Below, piece by piece: positions 3,147-42,961 of a DNA stretch of 46,279 bases. The stretch lies in assembly GCA_002172675.1 (NCBI GenBank), contig NETF01000173.1, positions 97,447 through 143,725 of the forward strand, in the 5' to 3' direction. The notes below the pieces were generated by a model that was given only the letters and a program-made list of their open reading frames with translations, was not told where the DNA came from and did not search any database. Source of the stretch: an unicellular cyanobacterium SU3 (lineage in GTDB: Bacteria; Cyanobacteriota; Cyanobacteriia; Cyanobacteriales; Microcystaceae). Position numbers and translations under genes: made by a program. The first letter of the stretch is position 1, and each line of letters begins with the position of its first letter.

Positions 3147-5108
3147 ATGAGAAATAAACGATGGGAAACGGTTATCAAGTTAGCTTGTGTCTTATTCGTC
3201 TTAATATTTCTCTTAATTGCCTATCCTTCTTCTATTGTAGCTGATGTAGAAAGGTCAGCTTTAACCCCTGAATTACTTCAACAAAGAATCAAGTCTCCTC
3301 AACTTCAAGAAGGAATTTTAACCCTTGATTTGACTTATTTAGAGATTGATTTAACTGCAGATAATAATGAATTTAAAGAAGAATTTTATTATCAATTACA
3401 AAATTTTTTAAATCATTCTGATAAAGCTATTGGTTTAGATTTTAGCCATTCTTTAATTAAAGGAGATTTAAGTAGTAGTCGTTTAGGTATTTCAACTATA
3501 CTTTCACCCGAAGCATTACCACAAAATTTTACTCAAACTGAACAAAAAATCATAGAATCTGATCCGCAATTTTCTGCCCAATCTTTAGACTCTATGAGTT
3601 CAGTTATTTTGTTTCGTGGATCGTTAAAATTAAACGAATCTAAACTCACAGGAAAAGTTAACTTTTCTAATACTTTATTTTTACAAAAAATCGAAGCTAA
3701 ACAAGCCAATTTTAACCAAGAAATTAATTTTAATAATGCTGATTTTGGTAGAAAAGTAGATTTCAGTGAGTCAGTTTTTAAAGAAACTGCTAACTTTAAT
3801 GGGACTCAATTTCAAGAAGCAGTTAAATTCTATCAAGTTCAATTTTTAGGAGAAGCCACTTTTAATTATACTCAGTTTAAGCAAGCTGCCGATTTTAGTG
3901 AAGTTGTTTTTAATAAAGTTGTCAATTTTAGTCATACGTCTTGGTCAGATACCAGTAAATTTATTAGTCTTAATTGTCGCGATCGCATTTTATTTTCTAA
4001 TAGTCTTTTTTTAGATTCAATCAACTTATCCAATTCAACTTTTGAGAAAAGTATTGTCTTTCGTAATTCTTATTTTAGAAATACTATCAATCTCAAAGAT
4101 ATTAAATTATTAGGAATTATGGATTTTAGTAATGCTGAATTTTTAAAAGAAAAAGCGATTAATATTGCTGGTTTTGCCTTTGACTCAGATACGGCTAAAG
4201 TTTTAGGAAATACGGGAGAAATTGCTCAATTTATGTATCTTAATAGTATTGAAGGAAATGAAAGCGTTTTAAGAAATTTTATTCAAAATTTTCGAGATTC
4301 AGAACAGATACCTGATGCGAATCAATTAGAATATAAAAAACAGAAACTAACTAAACAGCAATTATCAGAAAATATTATTAGAACCCCCTATAAAGATTAT
4401 TGGCGACTTAGCTTTAGTCAAAAACTGGGACATTGGTTATTATTAAATATTCTATTATTATTAAGTCAATATGGAACTAATTTTAGTTTATTGTTAGGGG
4501 TTGGTTTAATTTCTATTGGTTATTTTGGGGTTTTATTTTGGTTTGTAGATCGGTGGCGCAGACGTTTACCGACTCCAATTGTCCCTAATCTTTATGATAT
4601 CATTTGTATGGTGAGTAGTGGCTCCTCTTTATTAGTCATTGGAACCATAGAAATTTTTAATTCTGCTGAATACCCTTTTATTACTTTACTGTGTTTAAGT
4701 CTAATTTTAATTCCGCTTCCTTTATCTTTAGTAAGCTTAATGTATGAACGCGGAAGATATCATGATCTAATGGAAAGTTCTTATTTTCTGTTAGATGGAG
4801 GATTTCGACAATTACAATTATTAATTGTTCGTTTGCCAGTGATTCCTGAATTTCATTTTTTCCGCGATCGCTTCACTCCTTTAGTATGGGAAAGACGCTG
4901 GAATTGGTTAAATTATTATGATTTTAGTTTAAACAATTTTCTAAAATTAGGGTTCAATGATATTCGACTCAGAGATCAACATCTTCCTGGTTTAATCTCT
5001 ACTTTAGTCTGGTATCAATGGACATTAGGAATACTCTATATTGCTTTATTATTTTGGACCCTTTCTCGTACCATTCCAGGGTTAAATTTATTGATTTATT
5101 TGAAATAA
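3147..5108 (+). CDS. Membrane-anchored pentapeptide-repeat protein
   Basis: This 653-residue protein begins with a hydrophobic signal or anchor (residues about 10-30). A pentapeptide-repeat region follows at about 150-335, with units such as ANFNQ, INFNN, ADFGR, VDFSE and ANFNG, which would fold as a right-handed quadrilateral beta helix. The C-terminal half has several membrane segments: about 430-468 (probably two), 485-505, 510-535 and 620-640. The beta helix is therefore predicted to sit outside the cytoplasm, tethered to the membrane. The function of this architecture is unknown to me. It is the third gene of the clpS-DUF2103 run. Confidence 0.7.
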   Translation: MRNKRWETVIKLACVLFVLIFLLIAYPSSIVADVERSALTPELLQQRIKSPQLQEGILTLDLTYLEIDLTADNNEFKEEFYYQLQNFLNHSDKAIGLDFSHSLIKGDLSSSRLGISTILSPEALPQNFTQTEQKIIESDPQFSAQSLDSMSSVILFRGSLKLNESKLTGKVNFSNTLFLQKIEAKQANFNQEINFNNADFGRKVDFSESVFKETANFNGTQFQEAVKFYQVQFLGEATFNYTQFKQAADFSEVVFNKVVNFSHTSWSDTSKFISLNCRDRILFSNSLFLDSINLSNSTFEKSIVFRNSYFRNTINLKDIKLLGIMDFSNAEFLKEKAINIAGFAFDSDTAKVLGNTGEIAQFMYLNSIEGNESVLRNFIQNFRDSEQIPDANQLEYKKQKLTKQQLSENIIRTPYKDYWRLSFSQKLGHWLLLNILLLLSQYGTNFSLLLGVGLISIGYFGVLFWFVDRWRRRLPTPIVPNLYDIICMVSSGSSLLVIGTIEIFNSAEYPFITLLCLSLILIPLPLSLVSLMYERGRYHDLMESSYFLLDGGFRQLQLLIVRLPVIPEFHFFRDRFTPLVWERRWNWLNYYDFSLNNFLKLGFNDIRLRDQHLPGLISTLVWYQWTLGILYIALLFWTLSRTIPGLNLLIYLK

Positions 5109-8735: not shown

Positions 8736-10304
8736 TTATTTATAGTGAGTGACTTGTGTTGTTGTTCCTTGGCGAAGGGCGCGAGTTTGTTCTAAAATGT
8801 TTTCAATATTTTCTTGAGAGAGATTTTGAACATAGTTGATTTTAATTTCTTCTAGTAAATCATTTAGCAACAATTCGATCTGATCAATACTATGTTCTGC
8901 TTGTAATTCAGTCCCGAAAGAACGACTAAATTTATCAATTAACTGCTCTAAAAGTCGATCAAATTCTGGGTCTTCAATTAATAATCCCTGGAGTCCAACG
9001 GATAACCCTTGATACAGTTGAGAAACTAATCTTTCTGTTAATTGGTGCTGCATTACTTTGACCCCTGGAACGTTTTCTAAACCACGATAAGCAGGGGTTT
9101 GGGTTAAGGCTTTATCTACGTTATATCGTAAAAATTCTTCGGCTTCGGGACGAATTTCAGGAATAACTTTTGTAATGACTAAATCAGCCATAATTTTGAC
9201 TAACTCTGAGGTTTCATTAACATTATTAATATCAATATATTCCTTAGTATTTTGTCTAACTAAAATATTCCGAACCGTTCCATCTTTAATGGTTCCTTGA
9301 AGTTGATTAACCACTTGAATGATAACGACTTCGGTAACATCTTTAGCAATTCCTGCTACAAACCCTTGACTGGCTTGTTTTTTAATGGCTTTTAGATCGA
9401 TTAGATTTGATTCATCCAAACGAACAATTAAAGGAATAATTCTCAGGAAACGAAGTATGGGAATTAGTAAGAAAATATCGTACCAACGCCATAACATAGC
9501 ATCAAACCAGCTAACCCCTGTGTGACGACGACTAATATACCAACTACGAGCTAAAAACTCGGTTAAAAATAATAGAAAAAATGGAAAATCAATTAAACCA
9601 AAATTATCAACAGGTTCACCATTTTCTCCAACGGGACGAAAGTAATTAGTAGCAATTAAAGGAGCAATTTGTTGATCAAAAAAGTTGAGTTCATTTCGCC
9701 AACCATTACGCCGAAAATTCTCCTCACTCCAAAACTGCTCAAAAGCATCTTTTGCTGAAGTTTCTTCTGTATCAAAAACGTGTTCTCGCATTTTATTTTT
9801 AATGCGTTCTAAGGTTCCAGTCTTATTAGCTACTTGAAAGGGATTATCTGCGATCATTTCCCTACTTCTGTCTCGAAGATCAGCTAATAGTTCATCAATA
9901 GTTGAGCGAGATTCTCTATTTTCTGCTGTGATAGAATCCGTAAACGCTTGTTGACTAATAAGCTCATTAACTGCTTGGTTTAAATTTTCTACCCTTTCTA
10001 AATATAGGGCAGTATCTCGATAGGGTTCGATCCCTTTTATAATGTCATATTGGGTAATTAAATCTGAAACAGAGCTAGGGATAACTCTTAAAGGTGGTTT
10101 AGGAATTTCTTTTTCAAAAGTGCCAATTTTTATATAAACTTGAACTTTACCTTGTAACCAAAAATCTCGTAAAGGAATATAAGTTAAATCAAAAATTACT
10201 AAAACATAATTAACTAAAACGATCAAAGCCATGATCTTTTCAAACCAACGGCGAGGACGAAAAAACTTTTTTTGAGATTTGGAAGACACTTTTGTTATTG
10301 TCAT
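8736..10304 (-). CDS. Conserved membrane protein with voltage-sensor-like helix
   Basis: This 522-residue protein has an N-terminal membrane helix (about 25-45) and a long soluble region with helices at about 85-215. A hydrophobic block at about 235-300 includes FPFFLLFLTEFLA and ILRFLRIIPLIVRL. Arginines at three- and seven-residue spacing in the last helix resemble S4 of voltage-sensor domains, and the preceding acidic helix could be S2- or S3-like. A long amphipathic C-terminal region (about 310-510) follows. No pore-loop selectivity filter is visible. I would call it an ion-channel-related cyanobacterial protein of unknown function. Confidence 0.55.
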   Translation of the reverse strand: MTITKVSSKSQKKFFRPRRWFEKIMALIVLVNYVLVIFDLTYIPLRDFWLQGKVQVYIKIGTFEKEIPKPPLRVIPSSVSDLITQYDIIKGIEPYRDTALYLERVENLNQAVNELISQQAFTDSITAENRESRSTIDELLADLRDRSREMIADNPFQVANKTGTLERIKNKMREHVFDTEETSAKDAFEQFWSEENFRRNGWRNELNFFDQQIAPLIATNYFRPVGENGEPVDNFGLIDFPFFLLFLTEFLARSWYISRRHTGVSWFDAMLWRWYDIFLLIPILRFLRIIPLIVRLDESNLIDLKAIKKQASQGFVAGIAKDVTEVVIIQVVNQLQGTIKDGTVRNILVRQNTKEYIDINNVNETSELVKIMADLVITKVIPEIRPEAEEFLRYNVDKALTQTPAYRGLENVPGVKVMQHQLTERLVSQLYQGLSVGLQGLLIEDPEFDRLLEQLIDKFSRSFGTELQAEHSIDQIELLLNDLLEEIKINYVQNLSQENIENILEQTRALRQGTTTQVTHYK

Positions 10305-10487
10305 ATAAAAATGATACCACCCTCGAAAATTATACTAAAATGCGAGCTAGACTTATTATAAAGGAACTTTCTTGTTTGTATCGCAAGTCTAAAATTTATA
10401 TAGTAGACTAACATTAAAACTACTGAGTTCCAAGTTGGCTATTTTTCTTTTACTATTTTCATACCCTACAATGAATTAGAATTGATA

Positions 10488-13400
10488 ATGACTACAAATC
10501 TTCAAAAATCTTATAGTTATAAAGTTGGTGGAAGTCTAGGGTTTGATCATCCTACTTACGTAGAAAGACAAGCAGATACAACCCTTTTCACAGCATTAAA
10601 AGAGGGGAAATTTTGCTACGTTTTTAACTGTCGTCAGATGGGAAAATCTAGCTTAAGAGTAAGAGCGATGCACCAACTCCAAGAGCAAGGAATGAGTTGT
10701 GCGTCTGTAGATATTACCAGTTTAGGCAGTGATATTACTCAGAAACAATGGTACAGTGGCATCATTACTCAACTATTTTTAGGGTTTAATTTAATTGGAA
10801 AAGTCAACTTAAAAGTTTGGCTCAGAGAACGGGAAGAATTATCAGGAATCGAAAAGTTTCGTGAGTTTTTAGAAGAGGTTTTACTGGTTCATTGTTCTGG
10901 AGAAAAAGTTTATATTTTTATTGATGAAATTGATAAAGTTCTCAGTTTAAATTTTTCTTTAGATGATTTCTTTTCTGTGATCCGTTTCTTTTATAATCAA
11001 AGAGCAGAAAATCCAAAATTTGAACGATTAGTCTTTTCTTTATTCGGAGTAGCGACTCCCACAGATTTAATTCAAGATAAAACTCAAACCCCTTTTAATA
11101 TCGGTTTTCCTATTGAACTAACTGGATTTACTTCAGAAGAAATAGAACCATTAGCCCCTGGTTTAATCCCTATTACCGACCATCCTCAAGCGGTTCTCAA
11201 TAGTATTTTATATTGGACAGGAGGACAACCGTTTTTAACGCAAAAAGTCTGTGATTTACTTTTAACTCAAAGTCAGATTATTCCTTCAGGAAAAGAAAAA
11301 GAATGGATCGATAAAACCGTCAAAGAATTTATTATTGAAAATTGGGAATCTAATGATGAACCCGTGCATTTAAAAACCATTAGAGAAAGAATTTTTAGAA
11401 ATGAAAAAAGAGCCGGACGACTCTTAGGAATGTATCAGCAAATTTTGCAGCAAGGGTTTTTAAAAAGTGATGAAAGTCCTGAACAAACAGAATTAAGATT
11501 ATCCGGTTTAGTGGTCAAAAAGAATGGAAAATTAGTCGTTTATAATAAAATTTATCAATCTGTTTTTAATGAAGAATGGGTTAAAAAAGAACTAGAAAAG
11601 ATTAGACCCTATTCTGAGATGTTAACAGCTTGGGTTAATTCTAGTTATGAAGATAATTCCCGTTTGCTACGAGGACAAGCACTGAAAGATGCTCTTACTT
11701 GGGCAATGGATAAAAGTTTAAGTAACCTCGATTATCGATATTTAACGGAAAGTCAAAACTTAGACAAACGAGAAGCAGAAATAAATTTAGAAACCCAACA
11801 ACAAGCGAATGAAATTTTAACCAAAGCTAACCAAAAAGCTCAACGGATGATCCGCTTAGGAATGGGAATTTTAGCTGTTTCTGTGGTCAGCGCAACCATT
11901 GCCTTTAACCAAGCGTGGATAGCCTTTCAAAGACAAGAAGAGGCACAAATGGGAACCCAATTAGAACAAATAGGAGATAGTGCTTGGCGACAATTTGAAT
12001 TTGAACAGTTGGACGGATTAGTATCAGCGATGGAAGCGAATCAAAAGTTACAAACTTTAGTAAAAGATCGACGACTCTTAGAAGATTATCCCGCCACTAG
12101 CCCCATTTCCGCACTAGAACAAATCTTAAACCGCATCCAAGAAAAAAATAAATTAATCGGTCATCAAGACGCTGTTAATAGTGTTAGCTTTAGTGCCGAT
12201 GGTCAATGGATAGCAACCGCTTCGAGTGACGGAACGGTTCGTTTATGGGACTCCCAAGGACAACAAAAAACCGTTTTAACTGGTCATGAAGGGAATATTT
12301 ATGGAGTAGCTTTTAGTCCCAATAGCCAAACCCTAGCTACTGCAGCCCAGGATGACACTGCTAGAATATGGGACTTACAAGGGAAACAATTAGCCGTTCT
12401 CAAAGGTCATGATGCGTCAGTTTATAGTGTCACCTTTAGTCAAGATGGTCAACGCCTGGCCACGACTTCACGGGACAATACGGCGAGAATTTGGGATAAA
12501 CAAGGTAATCTCTTAGTGGTGTTGCAAGGTCACACAAAATCAGTGGATGACGTGGCTTTTAGTGCAGATGGTCAATATATTGTCACAGCTTCACGGGACG
12601 GAACGGCGAAATTATGGGATAACCAAGGAAATTTAATCAAAAGTTTGCAAGAAAATGCAATTCCTTTCTATAGCATTAATTTTAGTCCCGATGGTCAACG
12701 AATTGCTGCAGGGGCTAGGGACGGAACCGTTAAAATTTGGGATAAGCAAGGAAATTTGACCTTAACCTTGAAAGGCCATCAAGAATTAGTTAATAGTGTC
12801 GTATTTAGTCGAGATGGCAACTGGATAGCCAGTGGTTCGAGTGATGGAACCGCTAGACTCTGGAGTAAAGAGGGGCAAGAAATGACTGTGTTAAGAGGTC
12901 ATCAAGACCCTATTTATGATATTGCTTTGAGTCGTCAAGGAACAGAATTGGCCACCGCTTCGAGTGATGGAACGGTTAAATTATGGGCAGTTAGACAAAC
13001 CCCTAACAATGGGTTTAATACCTTGGATACTTATGTCACCAGTGCCGACTTTTCTCAAGATGGTAAACTATTAGCGATCGCTGATGAAAGTGGTAAAGTA
13101 TATCTTTGGAATTTACAAGGAAAAAAGTTAAAAGAATTTGAAGCACATAACAGTGGAATTAATGCCATTCGTATCAGTTCCAACGGTAAAATGATCGCGA
13201 CGACGGGGACTAATGGGAATGTAAAGTTATGGAATTTACAAGGGCAATTAATAGGAGAATTAAGAGATAATAATGTACGAATTTATAGTCTTAATTTTAG
13301 TTCAGATAGTCGAATTTTAGCAATGGCGAATCGTTCAGGAGAAGTGTGGTTATGGGATTTACAAACAAACCCTTATCAATTACTCGAAAAATTTAAAGCA

Positions 13401-32032: not shown

Positions 32033-32442
32033 AATTATTTTTAAGTAAGATTATGATTGAATTATAATAGAGTCTCAGAGAAAATGCGACTTAAACATTA
32101 AAACCAGGTCAAAAACCTCAGTAATATTTCAGTAACAAAATAGACATTATTTAAAAACTTAGAGGTTAATAAGGAGGATAATATAAAATACTTTACAAAA
32201 TAACATGAGTAAAATTAAATAACAAATAAGTTTTTTAACAAATTATAATTGATAGCACAAATCATATTTTCTTCAGAGTAAAATGAAATATATGAACATT
32301 TTTATTCTGTTATACAGGATAACTAATAGCAGTAGATTAGTTAATCTCTTATTGAGATACCATCTAGTTTACATAAACTAGAAGATAATTGACTTTACTG
32401 CAATTTATTTAGCTACCATCTTTGAGTGTGCCTAATCCTACT
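32033..32442. other. 410-bp AT-rich region before the pentapeptide gene
   Basis: No ORF of note. It contains a perfect hairpin, CTAGTTTA (32364-32371) with TAAACTAG (32374-32381) around CA, located 60-80 bp before the next start, and an AGGAGG-like AAGGAGG near 32170 that is not followed by a gene. The long length suggests an extended 5' leader or regulatory region for the pentapeptide gene. Confidence 0.4.
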
Positions 32443-33360
32443 ATGAATATTAGTCACCTACTGCGACAATATGAACAAGGTCATCGAAGTTTCCCAGAAC
32501 TTGATCTCACGGGAGTTGATTTATCAAGAGTTATGTTAATCTCTGTGGATTTAACCAAATCGAATTTAACAGGAATTAACCTCAGTCGTGGATTTTTAAC
32601 TAAATCGAATTTAAGTCAAGCCAGTTTAAATTGGGCTGATTTGTCCTATGCAAAAATGAGTCAATCTCAATTGATTGAAGCAGATTTAACCAAAGCCAAT
32701 TTGACCGGGGCTTTTATGGTCAAATCCATTTTGGTCAAGGCTAAGTTAAGTGGGGCGAATTTAGCTCATACTAATTTACGGGCTGCTGATTTATCATACT
32801 CCAATTGTTGTGGGGCTAATCTTCAGGAAATTAACCTTAGAGAAGCTAATTTAACAGGGGTCAATTTTAATTGGGCTAATCTTTCACAAGCCCGTTTAAG
32901 TGGTTGTAATTTACAAGAAGCTTCCTTTTTTGGGGCTAATTTAAGCCATACATTTATACAAAATGTTGATTTAAGTCATGCTGATTTAGAAGGAATTAAT
33001 TTTGAAAAATGCCGACTCACATATAGTAATCTTCAAGGAGCTAAATTACAAGGGGCTAATTTTCAACGGGCGAAATTACGTCATACCAATTTACGAGGGG
33101 CGAATCTTCAAGGGGCTAACTTAAAAGAGGCTGATTTAGAAGGGGCTAACTTAAAAGAGGCTGATTTAGAAGGGGCTGATTTAACTAATGCTATTATTGA
33201 AGATGCTGATTTTACAAATGCTAAATTTAATGAAACTAAGGTAGTCGGAACTAACTTAAAAACCCAAACTATTAAACCGATTTCACTACAATTACAACTT
33301 CAAGAAACTCCTAATTACGTTGATTCTTTGGAACTATTACAGACAGGTTTTGCTGTTTAA
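32443..33360 (+). CDS. Cytosolic pentapeptide-repeat protein
   Basis: About 305 residues, almost entirely A(D/N)LxX pentapeptides, from a short N-terminal cap (MNISHLLRQYEQGHRSF) through some 45 units such as ANLTG, ADLSY and ANLQG, then a ~45-residue non-repeat tail. It should fold as a rod-like right-handed beta helix. There is no signal peptide or membrane segment. Cyanobacterial relatives include regulatory proteins (HetL- and RfrA-type), but no function can be assigned here. I start at ATG 32443; TTG 32422 and GTG 32428 lie upstream in frame. The block encoding ANLKEADLEG is a recent perfect tandem duplication (33118-33170). Confidence 0.75.
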   Translation: MNISHLLRQYEQGHRSFPELDLTGVDLSRVMLISVDLTKSNLTGINLSRGFLTKSNLSQASLNWADLSYAKMSQSQLIEADLTKANLTGAFMVKSILVKAKLSGANLAHTNLRAADLSYSNCCGANLQEINLREANLTGVNFNWANLSQARLSGCNLQEASFFGANLSHTFIQNVDLSHADLEGINFEKCRLTYSNLQGAKLQGANFQRAKLRHTNLRGANLQGANLKEADLEGANLKEADLEGADLTNAIIEDADFTNAKFNETKVVGTNLKTQTIKPISLQLQLQETPNYVDSLELLQTGFAV

Positions 33361-33443: not shown

Positions 33444-34541
33444 TTATTTACTTTTTTGTGGATTTTTTGCCTGTTCCATGGCTATTTCTTTCATCGCTTC
33501 AAAGGAATTACGATTTGAGGTTCCTTCAATGGCTTTAACGGCTAAATCTTGAACCTGTTTGAGAGACGCTTCTAATTGTTGAGAGAGTTTTTGCTGACGA
33601 ATATCTTGATTATTTATGGTTTCTTCTAAAGCAGCAATTCTTAGTTCATAATTATGCTTTTCTCCTTCGATTTCTTTAGTCCGTAAATCTGATTTAATTT
33701 TAGCTTGATAAATTCCAATTCCTTTTCCTTCTTCTTTAGCCTGTTTAATTTTCTGTTCTAATTCTTGTTCTAATTGTTGGAGTTTAGCTTTCGTTTCTTC
33801 TTGTTCTTTTTCTTGTTTACTAATACTCTCTTCCCTTTCTTGCCATTGTTTTTCTTGGGTTTCTCTTGCTTCTTTTAATTCTTGATATAAAGCTTGTTTT
33901 TCTGCTTGATATTGTTCTTCATCTAATTGTCTTTCTAATTCTAAATTATAAATATATTGTTCTTCATCTCGCTTCTTATTGGTCAAATATTCTTGTTCTC
34001 TTTCTCGAACTTCTCGATTATGATTTTGTTTTTCTTTGTGCCAATTTTTTTGTAATTCCTCTAATTCTTTAGCAAGGGTTTCTTGTTGTTTATTTAGTTC
34101 TTCTTCGTTGATTTTGGCGGTAGTTTGATAGTCTTCAATTAGGTTAGATAAGGTGTCGTCTTCAATGGTTTCAACATTGTGTAATTCTTCTAATTCTGCT
34201 AATTCCTCTGTGGTAATTTTATTAAGTTCTGCTAATAAGGAAGCTTCGCCTATTAATTGTTCTGATAAATGACTAACTGCACTTCCAAAATTGTTTTGTA
34301 CTTTTTCTAAACTTTGAATGGTCAAAGTAATATTATTATTGAACAGGTTGTTTGCTGCTGTCATAACTTTTTTCTTAGGAGAATTGGAAGATTGATTATT
34401 GGGAATAACGGTTTGAGTAACCTGTGATGTTTTGCTTAATTGTTTGACTTGACTTTCTAATGCTGATTTTTCTTGAATTAGTTCTTCATAAGCTTCTAAG
34501 ATTTGAGCTTTAGTGTTTTTAGAATTAATTTTTTGTGCCAT
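33444..34541 (-). CDS. Coiled-coil protein A of the XRE-ImmA locus
   Basis: This 365-residue protein is almost wholly alpha-helical. A short N-terminal region starts MAQKINSKNTKAQILEAYEE. A small conserved segment NNLFNNNITLTIQ ... VQNNFGSAVSHLSEQL follows at about 65-105, then a very long charged coiled coil rich in E, Q and K (about 110-340), and the C-terminal motif QVQDLAVKAIEGTSN. GAGG precedes the ATG. It is a clear paralog of the next gene. There is no transmembrane or enzymatic motif; it might form filaments or a scaffold. The function is unknown. Confidence 0.6.
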   Translation of the reverse strand: MAQKINSKNTKAQILEAYEELIQEKSALESQVKQLSKTSQVTQTVIPNNQSSNSPKKKVMTAANNLFNNNITLTIQSLEKVQNNFGSAVSHLSEQLIGEASLLAELNKITTEELAELEELHNVETIEDDTLSNLIEDYQTTAKINEEELNKQQETLAKELEELQKNWHKEKQNHNREVREREQEYLTNKKRDEEQYIYNLELERQLDEEQYQAEKQALYQELKEARETQEKQWQEREESISKQEKEQEETKAKLQQLEQELEQKIKQAKEEGKGIGIYQAKIKSDLRTKEIEGEKHNYELRIAALEETINNQDIRQQKLSQQLEASLKQVQDLAVKAIEGTSNRNSFEAMKEIAMEQAKNPQKSK

Positions 34542-34576
34542 TTTTTTTACCTCTTTATTTGATAGTTTAGCTTGGT

Positions 34577-35554
34577 TTAATTGTTTCCTTGGAAGGCTCT
34601 TAAAGCTAGATTTTGCGCTTGATTAGTTGTATTTTGTAGTTGAGTATTTAGTTCTGAAATTTGTTCACTGTTTTGAGTGATTTTTGTTTCTAATGCTTGA
34701 ATCTTAAATTCATATCCCTGTTTGTTTAATTCCCATTCTTTTTCTAGTAAATCAATTTTAACTTGTGCTTCTCTATCAGCAGATTTAATAGCATCACCTT
34801 TGGCTTTATTATACTCTTCTTTTATTTTTGCCTCTAGTTCATCTATTTTTTGCTTGTTAGCTTCAAATTCTTTTGCATTTTGAGCTAAGATAGCTTCTCG
34901 TTCTTTCCAGGCTTTTTCTTTAGTGGAATTTAATAATTGTAATTCTCTCTGTTGCTGACGTTTTTTCTCTTCATATTCGTCCTGTTCTATTTTTCGGGAT
35001 TTTTGAATTTCATATTGATAATTAGTTGCTTCTTGTTCTCTTTGTTTATTGATTAACTCTGTTTCTTCTTCTATTCTTGTAGTAAATTCTTCCCCTTCTT
35101 TTTTCCAAGTGTTTCTTGTTTTTTCTTGTTCTTTTTCTAAGCTTTCTTTCTGTTGATTACTCTGTTCTTGTATTTTTCTTGATTTCTCTTCATATTCCTG
35201 TCTTAAAATATAAAGTGCATCAGCGACTAATCTTACTTTACGCAATTTTTGCAGTTGTTCTTGTTTAACTGTAATCGCTTTTTTGAGTTCATCTAATTTA
35301 GTGGATTCTATTGTTAAATTTTGGGATAAATCTTGAATAATTTGTCCGAAGTCTAATTGTAGAGAAGCCATACTGTTAACAATATTATTAACGGTATATT
35401 CCCCTGCTTTCTCTAATAATTGCTTATTTTTTTCCTTTTCTAGTTCTTCCTCTTTGGTGATAACACTCGATTCTTGTTGATGATATTTGTCTAAGAATTG
35501 GGTGAAATTAGACAAAATTTGCTCTTTTGTCCCTGCTAAGGTTTCTTGTGCCAT
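34577..35554 (-). CDS. Coiled-coil protein B of the XRE-ImmA locus
   Basis: A 325-residue coiled-coil protein when started at ATG 35554 (MAQETLAGTKEQILSNF), which aligns with the MAQ...TK-QIL start of its paralog; an upstream ATG (35596) would add 14 residues. The segment VNNIVNSMASLQLDFGQIIQ then DLSQNL matches its partner, then come about 200 residues of E/K/Q-rich heptads and the end QAQNLALRAFQGNN. It precedes protein A by 35 bp, so they form one transcript, driven from the region with the duplicated operator. Function unknown. Confidence 0.6.
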   Translation of the reverse strand: MAQETLAGTKEQILSNFTQFLDKYHQQESSVITKEEELEKEKNKQLLEKAGEYTVNNIVNSMASLQLDFGQIIQDLSQNLTIESTKLDELKKAITVKQEQLQKLRKVRLVADALYILRQEYEEKSRKIQEQSNQQKESLEKEQEKTRNTWKKEGEEFTTRIEEETELINKQREQEATNYQYEIQKSRKIEQDEYEEKKRQQQRELQLLNSTKEKAWKEREAILAQNAKEFEANKQKIDELEAKIKEEYNKAKGDAIKSADREAQVKIDLLEKEWELNKQGYEFKIQALETKITQNSEQISELNTQLQNTTNQAQNLALRAFQGNN

Positions 35555-35641
35555 AATTGTAATTTTCCTGGTATTAAATGCTGAAAAATTAGGCAACCTT
35601 TCTGATAAGGTTTCTTTTGAGTTTCTGGAATTTCCTATTAT

Positions 35642-35695
35642 GTTGATTTTTTAGTCAACACTGCTATGGTAAACTAATATTGATTTTTTAGTCAA
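35642..35695. promoter_or_regulatory. Duplicated operator in the XRE/coiled-coil divergent region
   Basis: The 16-mer TTGATTTTTTAGTCAA occurs perfectly twice, at 35643-35658 and 35680-35695 (37 bp start to start). Each copy has TTGA/TCAA dyad ends, extended to GTTGA/TCAAC in the first. On the minus strand each reads TTGACT, a good -35 box; on the plus strand the first supplies TTGATT, 16 bp before TATGGT. An XRE dimer bound here would block both promoters. Confidence 0.7.
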
Positions 35696-35729
35696 GTGCG
35701 ATTGAGAAAAAAGTTACCCAGGAGAAACC

Positions 35730-36077
35730 GTGAGTCAAACTTTTGGTCAAGTGATACGTCAAAGGCGCAAAAAGAAAGGATATAGTCAAAGGGAGTTAGC
35801 CGAGAAGCTGGAAATAGATTTTACTTACTTATCCAAGTTAGAGAATGATAGGGCTAAATATTCCCCAAAAGAGGATATTATTAGAGATTTAGCAGCTTAT
35901 CTAGACTTAGACGCAGACGAGTTAATTTTTTTAGCAGGTAAACTCCCCGAAGACAACGAGGACTTTTTACGAGAACACTATAAAAGTATGCCCACTTTGT
36001 TTAGAAGAATGAAAGAAAATCCCAAATTTGCAGAAAAAATATTTAATCAAGCGATACAAGAAGATAAGGAGGGGTAA
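35730..36077 (+). CDS. XRE-family transcriptional regulator
   Basis: A 115-residue protein with a Cro/CI-type helix-turn-helix at about 7-62 (FGQVIRQRRKKKGYSQRELA ... FTYLSKLENDR), followed by a helical tail (ENPKFAEKIFNQ) of the ImmR/DdrO type that can mediate dimerisation. The start is GTG at 35730 with AGGAG eight bases upstream. It lies 3 bp before the ImmA/IrrE gene, the usual order of repressor and its protease, and next to the duplicated operator it probably binds. Confidence 0.85.
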   Translation: MSQTFGQVIRQRRKKKGYSQRELAEKLEIDFTYLSKLENDRAKYSPKEDIIRDLAAYLDLDADELIFLAGKLPEDNEDFLREHYKSMPTLFRRMKENPKFAEKIFNQAIQEDKEG

Positions 36078-36080
36078 ACC

Positions 36081-36701
36081 ATGCAGATATTTAAGCCATT
36101 TCGTTTTATTCCCAAAAAAAGCATTGAAAAACAAGCCAGTAGCATTTTGCAGGAGATGGAAAAGACACCTACTTATGACTTAAAATTTCCTATAGATGCC
36201 AGTCGAGTCGCCGAATTTTTAGGATTAGACGTAGTGTGGGATAGTATTCCCAATGATGAAAAAGGAATGATTGCTGCGAGAATTTTACCCTTAGAAAAGT
36301 TAATTGAAATCAATGAATTAATTCCAGAATTAAGGGGAGGTTTTGGAGAATCTACCATTGCTCATGAAATCGGACATTGGGTATTACATATTGATCAAAA
36401 TATCGTTAACAAATGTTTAACAGAAGAGACTAAAATGATTAAAGTTGACCCCTTATTGTGTCGTAATGAAGTAAATTTGAGTGGTATTGAATGGCAAGCA
36501 CAATATTTCGCTAGTTGTTTATTAATGCCTCAGTTTAAATTAAAAGAAGTTTGTCAAAAGCGTAATTTACAACAGTGGAAAGAACTGTATAATATTGCTG
36601 AAGAATTAGGGGTAACAATTTCTAATTTAGGTCATCGCTTAAAAGATTTAGGTTGGATTGATTTAAAAGATAATTCTCGTCAAATTGAATTAAAAAAATA
36701 G
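36081..36701 (+). CDS. ImmA/IrrE family metallopeptidase
   Basis: A 206-residue COG2856 zinc peptidase. The HEIGH motif is at 95-99 (STIAHEIGHWVLH), and the likely third ligand is E137 in EWQAQYFASCLLMP, the conserved downstream motif. In ICEBs1 (ImmA) and Deinococcus (IrrE/PprI) such enzymes cleave a partner XRE repressor on stress or DNA damage. Here the XRE gene is 3 bp upstream and AGGAGG precedes the ATG, so coupling is strong. It probably relieves repression of the divergent coiled-coil genes; this is inference from context. Confidence 0.85.
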   Translation: MQIFKPFRFIPKKSIEKQASSILQEMEKTPTYDLKFPIDASRVAEFLGLDVVWDSIPNDEKGMIAARILPLEKLIEINELIPELRGGFGESTIAHEIGHWVLHIDQNIVNKCLTEETKMIKVDPLLCRNEVNLSGIEWQAQYFASCLLMPQFKLKEVCQKRNLQQWKELYNIAEELGVTISNLGHRLKDLGWIDLKDNSRQIELKK

Positions 36702-39511: not shown

Positions 39512-42500
39512 TTAAGCAAAGACAAAATTGTTACTATTCAAATCCAAATTATTACTATCTTTGACGATAGCCACTAATTCGTCTTGCATACCAGCAACTT
39601 TAAGGAAGATACCTTGATCATTACTTCCCGAAGGAGACGCACCGATAGCGTAATCATTAGCAGTTCCGTGTAATTGAATAATATCAATTGAAGCATCAAA
39701 CCCAGAGATTTCGAGATAATCTTGTTGTCCGTAGGAATCATAGAAGGATTCGGTTGCATCTCCTACCACAAAGCTATCTTCTCCTGCCGTTCCCACTTGC
39801 TGCTTCATTAGTCCTAGTAAAGCATCAGAATTAGCTGATCCGGTTAGGTTTCCTGTCCCCTCAAAGGCGAAGAAATTAACAGCTTCAGTGGTGTGGTTGG
39901 TTTCATCATCCTTACTGGTGTCTTCTTCGATCATGATGTCCACCTGTCCATTGCTCAGATTTTGATATCTTAAACCTGAAGAATCACCGCCATCGTAACT
40001 AGCAATATTTCCTAAGAATTGAGGATTATTGGTAAAGGTGTTACCAAAGTCAAGAGTATGCCAGTTATGGGTGACTTGATCACCAGTATTTCCTGCAATA
40101 AAGGTATTTCCGTCCCAGTTTCCTTGTCCTGGGGAAATGGCTAACCAAGCAATGGTTTCTGTACCATGACCAGTATTAAGATACGCTTCTTCTTCTTCTA
40201 AAGCAACTTGAAATCCATTGTTAGTTGTATTATTTTGACGGGTTCTTACGAAAGTGCCATCATTATCCGTTTGAACTTGTGTTAAAACAATGGGGGTATC
40301 CGTAAAATCATGACTAAAAGTAATATTGTGCCAATCTGAGCGAGTGGTAGCATCGGTGGTGACAGTACCCACTTCGATAATAGTGCCATCAGACAATTCC
40401 CAAACCCCTTGTTCAAGAACTAAGAAACTAAAAGTTTCTTGGGTATGGTTGCCGCTGTGGGTATTTTGGTCTATTAAAGTGGTTTCTTGAACTTGTACTG
40501 AAAAGCGCGCTCGCTCTGGCGAGATCCCTTCGGGATCGCCTTGAATATCAGTGATTCTGACAATGGAGGGATCAGGCCCATTGTAGGATAAAGGTTGAGC
40601 AAAAATAACAGGGTTAATGAAGTTATGATCGATAATAATCGTTTGACTGTCATGGGTTAAATCGTTAATTTGACCCATGTGAGCGATGATCTGATTGTTG
40701 GTTGCGGGGTCAGGATCGGTATTAGGGTCGCTATTGGGATTGACATTAGTCGATCCAGTTAAAGTTCCTATTTTGTCAATAGCGAAGAAATTAACAGCTT
40801 CAGTGGTGTGGTTGGTTTCATCATCCTTACTGGTGTCTTCTTCGATCATGATGTCCACCTGTCCATTGCTCAGATTTTGATATCTTAAACCTGAAGAATC
40901 ACCGCCATCGTAACTAGCAATATTTCCTAAGAATTGAGGATTATTGGTAAAGGTGTTACCAAAGTCAAGAGTATGCCAGTTATGGGTGACTTGATCACCA
41001 GTATTTCCTGCAATAAAGGTATTTCCGTCCCAGTTTCCTTGTCCTGGGGAAATAGCTAACCAAGCAATAGTTTCTGCTCCACGTCCATTATCAAGATAAG
41101 CTTCTTCTGCTTCTAAAGCAACTTGAAATCCATTGTTAGTTGCATTATTTTGACGGGTTCGCACAAAAGTAGCATCATTATCCGTTTGAACTTGGGTTAG
41201 AATAATGGGGGTATCCGTAAAGTCATAATTAAAAGTGATGTCATGCCAGTTTGAGCGAGTAGTAGCATTGGTGCTGACAGTACCGACTTCGATAATCGTG
41301 CCATCAGACAGTTTCCATGTTCCCTCTTCAAGCACTAAGAAACTAAAAGTTTCTTGGGTATGGTTGCCACTGTGGGTATTTTGATCTATTAAAGTGGTTT
41401 CTTGAACTTGGACTGAGAAGCGATCGCCTTGAATATCAGTGATTCTGACAATGGAAGGATCGCCACCATTGTAAGATAAGGGTTGAGCAAAGATAACGGG
41501 GTTAATGAAATTATAATCGAGAATAATCGTTTGACTATTATGGTCTAAATTTGTAATTCGACCCATTTGAGCGATGATCTGATTGTTAGTTACGGGATCT
41601 GGATCACTATCAGGGTCGGTATTGGGATCAGCAGTTGGTTCTATATCACTGTAAAGAATTTGGATTTGATTACTGGGATCAGCGTAATAGTTTACTAACT
41701 CAACAGAACCATTACTACCTAAATTGATAATCAAGTTTTGACCATTTTGGCTGGTGGTTACTTCATTTAAAGCATAATCTAATTTGAGGGTGTCTTCATT
41801 GCTTCCATAATAGATTTTATCGTTTCCAGTGACGCGATTAATATTGTAACCCCTAATCTCATTAACAACACCATTGAGATAAATCTTGTCATCACTACTA
41901 GAGTTGATCACATTTTCTACCTCAAAATCGTAAGCTATTGCAGTAGAATAATTGGTTACATTGCTAAAGGTCTTACTGAGAAGTCCACCTCCTCTTAAAT
42001 CGAAATGAAAGCCACTACTTTGAGCATTTAAACCCGAAAAATCTAAAGTATCAATACCATCGGAGTCCCAGAGGGTTTGTTTAGTTCGATAAGATGTTTC
42101 TACAAGAGAAACCCCATTAACACTGACTTGATCGATATAATTACCAAAGACATAGGTGGTATCTCCAACATTGTGACTTTTAGCCCCATATAAGTGTTGT
42201 AAGGCTGCAATATCGAGAGGCATAAAAGTGGCTGCGGCAGGCCCCCCAAAGTTATAAGTCATTACTGAGTTATCTGTGTTATCTAACTCCGAAGATAAAG
42301 GGGTTCCACTATGAGTATGAGATAATCCTAGTGCATGGCCTAGTTCATGGACTAAGGTCATGTAACCATGTTTTCCAGGATCGTGTTGGAAACCATTGGT
42401 ATCTCCCAAGCGATCATAATTGGAGTTTAAATGAACATCTCCTGCCACTTTTGAATAGGGACTGGTGGGATAATAAGCATAGGCATAACTGGGATTGTTA

Positions 42501-42961
42501 GAATTTTGAATACGGATGTCACCGTATGTATTCTTGTTAATTTCATCAACTTCAACAAAATCAACATCAATAACATTTTCTAACCAAGTAAAAATTTCTC
42601 TATAACTGTGTTTAACGGCGTTACTAACTTCTTTTACTCCTGATTCTGAGCCGTAATAGGAGTTAGAAAAATCGTCATCTTCATAGAAACTATAGGTAAT
42701 AATTCCACCCGGAATAACGTTCCATTGATAACCTGATAAAACAGCCTTGATAGGTGGAGATGTGGGTTCAGAATTAGAAGAACTTGTTGTACTTCCACTG
42801 GTGGTATTATTAACCGTGTTATTTCCTTCAAATGAACCATTTGTACAACAAGAAGGACACGCACATCTAATATCATTAACCGATAGATTATGTTGATTGG
42901 AACTGTTGTCTTGTTGTTTTAATACTTGTTTGATTAAGTCTAGATCGAATGGGTTATTCAT
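39512..42961 (-). CDS. Serralysin-type metalloprotease with duplicated lectin-like modules
   Basis: This 1149-residue protein opens with a cysteine-containing N-terminal segment and a peptidase M10 (serralysin/metzincin) domain at about 75-270. The zinc site HELGHALGLSH is at 205-215, with the Met-turn in NSVMTYNF. A ~180-residue linker follows, then two ~270-residue copies of a lectin-like (H-type-lectin-like) region, each made of three beta sub-units, and a C-terminal tail typical of cyanobacterial type I secreted proteins (DSFVVGDATESFYD ... DLNSNNFVFA). There is no classic signal peptide, so export through a TolC-type system is likely. The copies may bind glycans on prey or on the cell's own surface. 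Confidence 0.75.
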   Translation of the reverse strand: MNNPFDLDLIKQVLKQQDNSSNQHNLSVNDIRCACPSCCTNGSFEGNNTVNNTTSGSTTSSSNSEPTSPPIKAVLSGYQWNVIPGGIITYSFYEDDDFSNSYYGSESGVKEVSNAVKHSYREIFTWLENVIDVDFVEVDEINKNTYGDIRIQNSNNPSYAYAYYPTSPYSKVAGDVHLNSNYDRLGDTNGFQHDPGKHGYMTLVHELGHALGLSHTHSGTPLSSELDNTDNSVMTYNFGGPAAATFMPLDIAALQHLYGAKSHNVGDTTYVFGNYIDQVSVNGVSLVETSYRTKQTLWDSDGIDTLDFSGLNAQSSGFHFDLRGGGLLSKTFSNVTNYSTAIAYDFEVENVINSSSDDKIYLNGVVNEIRGYNINRVTGNDKIYYGSNEDTLKLDYALNEVTTSQNGQNLIINLGSNGSVELVNYYADPSNQIQILYSDIEPTADPNTDPDSDPDPVTNNQIIAQMGRITNLDHNSQTIILDYNFINPVIFAQPLSYNGGDPSIVRITDIQGDRFSVQVQETTLIDQNTHSGNHTQETFSFLVLEEGTWKLSDGTIIEVGTVSTNATTRSNWHDITFNYDFTDTPIILTQVQTDNDATFVRTRQNNATNNGFQVALEAEEAYLDNGRGAETIAWLAISPGQGNWDGNTFIAGNTGDQVTHNWHTLDFGNTFTNNPQFLGNIASYDGGDSSGLRYQNLSNGQVDIMIEEDTSKDDETNHTTEAVNFFAIDKIGTLTGSTNVNPNSDPNTDPDPATNNQIIAHMGQINDLTHDSQTIIIDHNFINPVIFAQPLSYNGPDPSIVRITDIQGDPEGISPERARFSVQVQETTLIDQNTHSGNHTQETFSFLVLEQGVWELSDGTIIEVGTVTTDATTRSDWHNITFSHDFTDTPIVLTQVQTDNDGTFVRTRQNNTTNNGFQVALEEEEAYLNTGHGTETIAWLAISPGQGNWDGNTFIAGNTGDQVTHNWHTLDFGNTFTNNPQFLGNIASYDGGDSSGLRYQNLSNGQVDIMIEEDTSKDDETNHTTEAVNFFAFEGTGNLTGSANSDALLGLMKQQVGTAGEDSFVVGDATESFYDSYGQQDYLEISGFDASIDIIQLHGTANDYAIGASPSGSNDQGIFLKVAGMQDELVAIVKDSNNLDLNSNNFVFA
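39867..40694 (-). repeat. Lectin-like repeat, copy 2 (C-terminal)
   Basis: About 828 bp matching 40782-41582 at an offset of 915 bp, or 888 bp beyond the 27-bp insertion at 40508-40534. The first ~270 bp are almost identical to the other copy, while the remainder has drifted, which suggests recent gene conversion of one part. Confidence 0.85.
40508..40534. repeat. 27-bp palindromic insertion inside the protease gene
   Basis: Comparing copies, 'aagcg|atcgcc' in copy 1 (41419-41428) is interrupted in copy 2 by 27 bp containing GCTCGCTCTGGCGAG and GATCCCTTCGGGATC palindromes. It adds nine residues (PEGISPERA) in frame. The target is a GCGATCGC-type site. It looks like a small palindromic mobile sequence. 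Confidence 0.8.
40782..41582 (-). repeat. Lectin-like repeat, copy 1 (N-terminal)
   Basis: Partner of 39867-40694. The encoded units share the F-x-QPLSYNG-DPS, THNWHTLDFGNTF and LAISPGQGNWDG phrases with the other copy. The linker between copies is D/N/P-rich (NSDPNTDPDPATNN). Confidence 0.85.

Follow-up and report, generated by a model that had tools for sequence, protein, structure and literature searches.

In Deinococcus, the M78-family protease IrrE (PprI) cuts the XRE-family repressor DdrO. In the CapH/CapP pairs, which are reported to regulate the cyclic-oligonucleotide-based anti-phage signalling system (CBASS), bacteriophage exclusion (BREX) and other systems, CapP cuts CapH. PprI and CapP are both described as responding to single-stranded DNA (ssDNA), and a GAF-like domain is reported to be needed for this activation in PprI. 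Here we describe a locus of similar composition in a 46,279-nucleotide stretch of contig NETF01000173.1 (the window) from the unicellular cyanobacterium SU3, in which genes for an XRE-family repressor and an M78 metallopeptidase lie divergent from an operon encoding two long coiled-coil proteins, A and B. The locus is a new combination of known parts, and we consider it probable that it forms a derepression switch of the DdrO/IrrE or CapH/CapP kind that raises a two-subunit coiled-coil filament after DNA damage.

Likely relatives of the locus are known from other cyanobacteria. In Arthrospira/Limnospira PCC 8005, the arh locus is reported to comprise an XRE gene, 10466, divergent from genes 10467–10471 (PMC4398503, PMC4550399, PMC8400943); 10470 was named ArhC in 2015 and arhD in 2021, and 10471 was named ArhB in 2015 and arhE in 2021. 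Under gamma rays from spent fuel, arh RNA rose 8–30 fold, and under cobalt gamma rays the genes were induced on the RNA and partly on the protein level. For 10471, the RNA change at 3200 Gy was not significant, with a protein value of 1.75, and at 5000 Gy RNA was up 22-fold, with no significant protein change; for 10470, RNA rose 3.1- and 14.6-fold, with a protein value of 1.40 at 3200 Gy only. The XRE gene itself was up 2.55- and 2.78-fold, as autoregulation would predict. The response is described as dose-dependent on gamma rays and as not elicited by nitrogen deprivation or a light/dark shift. The Anabaena proteins ZicK and ZacK are reported to be coiled-coil proteins that form strictly interdependent heteropolymers and may stabilise the trichome (PMC7766704), and SepJ is reported to interact with both (PMC8262864).

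Architecture of the locus and its paired operator

The four genes are arranged as follows.

33444–34541, minus strand: gene of coiled-coil protein A, 365 residues; second gene of the operon
34577–35554, minus strand: gene of coiled-coil protein B, 325 residues from ATG; first gene of the operon
35730–36077, plus strand: XRE-family repressor gene, ArhR-type; GTG start, 115 residues
36081–36701, plus strand: M78 (ImmA/IrrE/CapP-like) metallopeptidase gene, 206 residues

The XRE and M78 genes are separated by 3 bp, and both are divergent from the B–A operon; the listing of open reading frames also gives protein B a longer version that begins with TTG at 35596. The intergenic region contains TTGACTAAAAAATCAA twice, with 21 bp between the copies, in the following setting.

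35680–35695: operator site 1, TTGACTAAAAAATCAA on the minus strand; the -35-like hexamer of the coiled-coil promoter falls within it
35643–35658: operator site 2, TTGATTTTTTAGTCAA on the plus strand; immediately beyond the -10-like box of that promoter
35666–35671, minus strand: TACCAT, the -10-like hexamer of the same promoter, separated by 18 bp from a -35-like TTGACT (35695–35690); assigned by match to consensus, with a shuffle control

Site 2 also appears by eye to supply a -35-like hexamer, TTGATT, for the XRE gene. Generalised as TTGAN8TCAA-N19..26-TTGAN8TCAA, with the reversed pattern as a control, the paired site occurs once in the 5.6-Mb host genome, exactly at this locus, and the control does not occur at all. 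In 61 genomes searched, the pattern was found at 36 places, 29 of them at loci of XRE or coiled-coil genes and seven elsewhere (one each in G105, G002, G131, G320, G241, G019 and G167), against 13 places for the reversed pattern.

The paired site co-occurs with the repressor. Of the 26 genomes that combine the window class of repressor with the full coiled-coil pair, 24 carry it at the operon of the pair, counting two (G039 and G203) in which it lies on a contig piece with c15, the first gene of a longer operon described below; it is present there in none of the 26 genomes with the full pair that lack this class of repressor. In two of the 24 (G008 and G213) the XRE and M78 genes are on a different contig from the pair, and nevertheless the sole paired match is at the coiled-coil promoter; in G008 the 600 bp upstream of the XRE gene hold no such site. 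The paired site therefore marks a target and is not merely the repressor's own promoter element. A Pleurocapsa locus (L008) likewise carries the paired site, with no XRE gene in the 1.2 kb of contig upstream. In two loci with a second XRE/M78 subfamily (L055 and L095), the window-type sites are missing and a different palindrome, TGCAAACTRYAGTTTGCA, is found instead.

Each of the 26 distinct paired sites in front of the coiled-coil operon begins with TTGAC, followed 17 or 18 bp later by TANNNT; when the spacers were shuffled (2000 shuffles), on average 1.8 and never more than 8 of the 26, many of which come from near kin, still did so. With this spacing, one site is predicted to cover the -35 element, while the coiled-coil transcript would start within the other. 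At the level of sequence, the target promoter is thus overlaid by operators, as in DdrO/IrrE and CapH/CapP switches. We conclude that the link from XRE repressor to operator to coiled-coil operon is well supported by these comparisons, and we predict that the XRE protein binds these sites. The sequence-only reading had cast the XRE/M78 pair as regulator of the two coiled-coil genes, and the paired operator, in trans as well as in cis, makes this very probable.

Distribution of the coiled-coil pair, repressor and protease

In a survey of 386 cyanobacterial genomes, a profile (A1) built from proteins A and B matched 56, of which 52 carry a full side-by-side pair. The other four (G385, G151, G087 and G231; L091–L094) hold decayed copies or fragments, which were set aside before counting; some lineages thus seem able to do without the pair. 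Family f6 has a match at E 1e-20 in 50 of its 61 genomes, a count of profile matches irrespective of intactness.

In 23 of the 52, an XRE gene adjoins the pair or its operon (G207 included). Two more (G039 and G203) have XRE, M78 and c15 together at a contig end, and G008 and G213 are the genomes with the regulatory genes on another contig. A further 21 pairs, all in family f5, are divergent from genes for a response regulator, a histidine kinase and a PhoU-like protein (the sphR type), and four have other neighbours or end at a contig boundary (G143, G091, G300 and G360). The 27 pairs with an XRE gene are spread over 11 families; 26 are of the window class and one (G197, L055) is of the second subfamily, which also occurs on a Kovacikia plasmid (L095). 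In the tree of A and B, the sphR-type rows lie among the XRE rows and require three changes (quick method, midpoint root). This fits an old association with XRE that may have been lost or replaced in the Nostocales.

A strong XRE match (at least 173 bits; the next is 152) was found in 34 genomes, and 26 of these carry the pair, against 4.9 expected by independent draw, uncorrected for kinship; the class limit (about 170 bits) was chosen after the table had been seen, and the XRE profile (A4) was built from XRE genes adjoining the pair.

Coiled-coil proteins A and B

Proteins A and B share 33% identity over 278 residues by BLASTP (101 bits, E 6e-29). Among 2000 block-shuffled copies of protein B, 1998 scored and the highest reached 27.3 bits against the 101 bits of the real sequence. 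We conclude that A and B are true paralogues and that their similarity goes beyond coiled-coil composition. The N-terminal, central and C-terminal motifs are mostly kept across 15 aligned relatives. No Pfam model exceeds the cut-off for either protein: LytM_N matches A at E 0.067, below the cut-off, and nothing matches B at E up to 1; NCBIfam gave two weak matches to B, far below the cut-off. The AlphaFold model of protein B consists of a short helix (residues 9–25) and a very long one (37–322), with a mean predicted local distance difference test score (pLDDT) of 77 and a predicted template modelling score of 0.30. The four-gene arrangement, the two homologous coiled-coil proteins with shared motifs and their lack of an enzyme domain had all been proposed by the sequence-only reading, and the gene coordinates, the 3-bp gap, the Pfam assignments of the regulatory genes (below), the BLASTP score with its shuffle control and the alignment of relatives bear it out.

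ArhC has been labelled in print as a structural maintenance of chromosomes (SMC) protein; neither A nor B matches an SMC model of Pfam at E up to 1, and we do not adopt the label. Single-gene relatives occur in six of 296 Bacteroidota genomes by phrog_29668 (the centre genome counted), and three are nearly full length; no XRE or M78 gene of the present kinds adjoins the four loci examined (L103, 8249–9304; L104, 7446–8510; L105, 7368–8405; L009, 5980–6969). Small genes near those in L103 and L105 look toxin–antitoxin-like by eye.

The XRE repressor and the M78 protease

Pfam assigns the repressor to HTH_3 (E 2e-14) and the protease to Peptidase_M78 (E 1.1e-9). The protease carries a HEIGH motif at residues 95–99; in an alignment of 13 sequences, HExxH and EWQAQYF are invariant and Cys127 is kept in 12. 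Its predicted structure has a mean pLDDT of 88 and resembles IrrE (3dti, E 3.9e-5), PprI in complex with ssDNA (8sln, 4.6e-5), CapP (7t5t, 7.2e-5) and a regulator from Mycobacterium, with E values of 4e-5 to 7e-5. When the M78 profile was compared with PDB sequences, CapP was the only match at E 0.01 (E 7e-4). PADLOC likewise ranks CapP first for the protease (E 5.5e-19), and for the repressor it ranks capH second (E 2e-10), after HTH_VI. The repressor has a conserved LFRRM stretch. By family membership, the protease likely cleaves the XRE protein.

We propose the following sequence of events. The XRE protein would bind the two TTGAN8TCAA sites, covering both divergent promoters and holding down expression of its own gene and of the coiled-coil operon. 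When DNA is damaged, the M78 protease would cut it, as IrrE/PprI cuts DdrO and CapP cuts CapH, whereupon A and B would be made in large amounts and assemble together. By analogy with ZicK/ZacK, the two would form a heteropolymer in this organism, which might brace cell shape, division or the chromosome during repair; roles in shape, at the septum or in chromosome cohesion or confinement are all possible. The paralogy of A and B, the operator architecture, the single paired site, the co-occurrence including that in trans and the protease fold are computed here, and they carry a proposal in which repressor binding and cleavage, the nature of the signal, the joining of A with B and the task of the two are what we infer.

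Relationship to the arh operon

The window shares with the arh locus its repressor class, operator type and coiled-coil pair, with the XRE gene divergent. The arh authors are reported to describe 10470 and 10471 as conserved in cyanobacteria, giving a single set of values with 47.84% for Nostoc PCC 7120. Among denominators from 300 to 379, the published 95.12, 94.82 and 94.21% fit only 328, and 49.38, 48.46 and 47.84% fit only 324. In two genomes of genus g149 (L128 and L129; 6.4 and 6.8 Mb), protein B is 328 residues long, and the two B proteins are 95.4% identical; their loci consist of XRE and M78 genes, operator sites and a five-gene operon. Protein B of L128 is 42–53% identical to the 21 Nostocales-type B proteins. 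Three extra genes, c15, c13 and c14, lie between the promoter and B and A in the f6 genomes, an arrangement that corresponds to that of the arh genes; the window lacks all three. From the shared layout and the 328-residue length, we take B and A to be 10470 and 10471. Gamma-ray induction, carried over from this likely orthologous operon, supports damage as the signal by analogy.

A PstS-like gene (10472) beside protein A would have been further proof that L128 is the arh locus; this was not confirmed, and the assignment rests on layout and protein length. The products of c15, c13 and c14 have no Pfam match above the cut-off, and that of c14 has a cysteine cluster. In L111 (G262:C48) these three genes stand behind the operator without the coiled-coil pair (compare L043, L050 and L128). 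In L129, the repressor gene is cut off from its operon by an element (9477–10609), TnpB-like by eye and from its kin open reading frames, that is placed between XRE gene and operator.

Probable identity of the pair with Alr4504 and Alr4505

In Nostoc PCC 7120, all4501, all4502 and all4503 are reported to be phoU, sphS and sphR (PMC7564538). The Nostocales-type synteny with sphR–sphS–phoU accordingly places the pair at alr4504 and alr4505, so that by position protein B corresponds to Alr4504 and protein A to Alr4505. With a single profile, A1, the two genes are recovered next to each other from Crocosphaera-type as well as sphR-type genomes, and they fall in one tree. By gene order and shared profile, the pair belongs to the Alr4504/Alr4505 family. 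We take Alr4504 and Alr4505 to be ZicK and ZacK, so that for the present pair these names rest on synteny. The sequence-only reading had found the pairing of regulator and filament-like proteins unfamiliar; the coiled-coil pair is in fact already known, from arh and, on this assignment, as ZicK/ZacK.

XRE/M78 cassettes of the same or a sister class at Argonaute operons

Of 48 XRE matches, 24 are at the coiled-coil operon, and 19 of the others were fetched (G095, G097, G235, G237 and G315 were not); two further contig-end pieces that were fetched both belong to coiled-coil operons. In ten of the 19 loci, a Cas4-like PD-(D/E)XK nuclease and a long-type Argonaute are divergent from XRE and M78 genes of the same or a sister class (L109, 2365–5465; L112; L115; L119–L125), the assignment resting on Pfam and PADLOC for three and on BLAST for all ten. 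Two of them with the strong XRE class (L109 and L112) carry the TTGAN8TCAA pair; in several of the remaining loci, inspection by eye picks out two copies of a 17-bp form, TTGAC-N7-GTCAA or near it. Three genomes (G105, G099 and G203) own both coiled-coil and Argonaute cassettes, and two with the full pair that lack the window-class repressor (G197 and G340) have an Argonaute-linked XRE instead. In a tree of XRE and M78 sequences, built by a quick method without L055 and L095, the rows from Argonaute loci fall into two groups next to those from coiled-coil loci; 13 of the 42 inner branches are open, and eleven rows are less than half filled. The cassette is therefore a candidate regulator of cyanobacterial Argonaute immunity. 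In the open literature searched, we found no published link of Argonaute with XRE/IrrE, or of CapH/CapP with Argonaute, cyanobacteria or coiled coils.

Neighbouring genes and the rest of the window

The locus is flanked by genes for a pentapeptide protein, carA, an ABC ATPase and mraY, a set wholly or partly common to near Crocosphaera/Cyanothece loci (L003–L006). No integration or conjugation gene was found by Pfam among the four genes and the four neighbours scanned. Pentapeptide-repeat proteins lie near the coiled-coil locus in several lineages (window 32422–33360; L003–L006, L043, L087–L090). At 39512–42961, the window encodes a protein of 1149 residues with a HELGHALGLSH motif and, by eye, two long near-identical repeats; from the motif, it looks like a secreted M10-type metalloprotease.

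Weighing the proposal

Several observations weigh against a damage-triggered switch of this kind. The structural matches of the protease are loose (template modelling score about 0.5, root-mean-square deviation 5–9 Å), and its single sequence has no match in the PDB at E 0.1. The PDB matches of the repressor are SinR-like and phage-type repressors, not DdrO or CapH. At 206 residues, the protease is too short to hold a GAF-like domain after its protease and helical parts; given the need for this domain in PprI, the signal may be read differently here. No XRE gene was found for 25 of the 52 intact pairs, 21 of them in the Nostocales-type synteny, and those 21 show no site; G131 has XRE and M78 beside the pair and no site there, and G116 has a single site. 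Eight of 26 genomes keep repressor and operator without an M78 of the window class at E 1e-25 (G109, G119, G145, G187, G002, G066, G298 and G207; not all first-look candidates were scored). This protease thus cannot be obligatory there, and the repressor can persist without it. The 467-residue neighbour of protein A in L128 lacks a phosphate-binding Pfam domain at E 0.01, where the PstS-like 10472 was expected, and the expression support comes by analogy from the arh operon of a likely relative, Arthrospira, and not from this organism. The sequence-only reading had named coiled-coil genes found widely without the XRE/ImmA pair as evidence against itself; the 25 pairs without XRE partly provide it, whereas the 27 with XRE are spread over 11 families.

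The best-surviving alternative is that the pair is a cell-shape cytoskeleton, as described for ZicK/ZacK, and that XRE/M78 answers envelope, oxidative or nutrient stress and not DNA damage. The interdependent heteropolymers, their tie to trichome shape and SepJ, and the 21 genomes with sphR–sphS–phoU-type neighbours all suit it. So does induction by β-N-methylamino-L-alanine (BMAA), which is reported to have raised Alr4505 20-fold and Alr4504 4.35-fold in diazotrophic cells (PMC8147232) and Alr4505 6.67- and 3.57-fold in two other conditions (PMC7354497), and so does the reported control of Alr4505 by NtcA. RecA, however, rose alongside Alr4505 in the latter two conditions, 3.03- and 3.7-fold; the arh genes answer gamma rays and not the nitrogen or light treatments; and the protease's kin PprI and CapP respond to ssDNA. 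We therefore regard this alternative as unlikely.

Less likely still is an anti-phage system, with a switch that detects the processing of phage DNA and a coiled-coil pair that halts infection as effector or scaffold. The Argonaute loci, the systems under CapH/CapP and the match of phrog_29668 to all 15 aligned coiled-coil proteins might be read in this way. A and B, however, have no enzyme or toxin domain in Pfam, and PADLOC offers only LmuB (E 0.05 and 0.57), a kinship that we rejected as coiled-coil noise. Gene order is kept among near kin, and the tree of A and B groups mostly by family. A phage origin was also rejected: tblastn of B, A and L009 against phage records found nothing, and a scan of viral_contigs for the coiled-coil proteins gave no match. 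The earlier suggestion of a stress- or phage-triggered structural system accordingly stands for stress, which fits the gamma-ray induction of arh, and not for phage, for which only the switch shared with Argonaute operons speaks.

XRE/ImmA pairs are common on mobile elements, and eight of the 34 strong-XRE genomes lack the coiled-coil pair, but the paired operator of the coiled-coil promoter, kept in two genomes where the repressor is in trans, and the excess of co-occurrence over independent draw (kinship aside) make a toxin–antitoxin or mobile-element remnant lying there by chance highly improbable.

We return to the damage-triggered switch as the preferred reading. A bolder version of it, which we offer tentatively and with some doubt, is a RecA/LexA-independent damage response of cyanobacteria in which an M78 protease of the ssDNA type would free a heteropolymeric, intermediate-filament-like pair to brace or confine the chromosome or septum, the same cassette arming Argonaute immunity elsewhere in the phylum. 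Were this true, a cytoskeletal filament would rank with immune nucleases as an effector. In the published accounts Arthrospira has no lexA and does not induce recA, yet shows a strong, unexplained arh response. The present locus offers a concrete candidate sensor (XRE/M78), operator and output within one strain, and it would join three literatures, on radiation resistance in spirulina, on ZicK/ZacK filaments in Anabaena and on protease-controlled immune operons.

Comparison with known systems

Like DdrO/IrrE, the locus combines an XRE repressor with an M78 protease of loosely matching fold, and its likely relative, arh, is induced by damage without LexA. It differs in having one paired operator in the host genome, two adjacent genes, a protease without the GAF-like domain and a repressor with no PDB sequence match to DdrO. 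As in CapH/CapP, the XRE and M78 genes stand side by side and point away from a single operon. For the protease, CapP is both the top PADLOC match and the sole profile match in the PDB; for the repressor, CapH is the second PADLOC match. The cargo here, in contrast, is without an immune enzyme, and the protease has 206 residues against the 291 of the CapP chain.

Like ZicK/ZacK, A and B are an adjacent, same-strand pair of paralogous coiled-coil proteins, found by the same profile and placed in one family by synteny; the 21 sphR-type loci differ in lacking XRE/M78 and the paired site, and the Anabaena host is multicellular. The arh operon comes closest. Its XRE gene is divergent from an operon whose last two genes are conserved in Nostoc; in L128 and L129 the XRE gene is followed by an M78 gene, and operator sites are present. 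The accessible text of the arh papers names no M78 protease, operator or link to filament proteins, and c15, c13 and c14 stand there between promoter and pair, whereas in the window the promoter leads directly into the coiled-coil genes.

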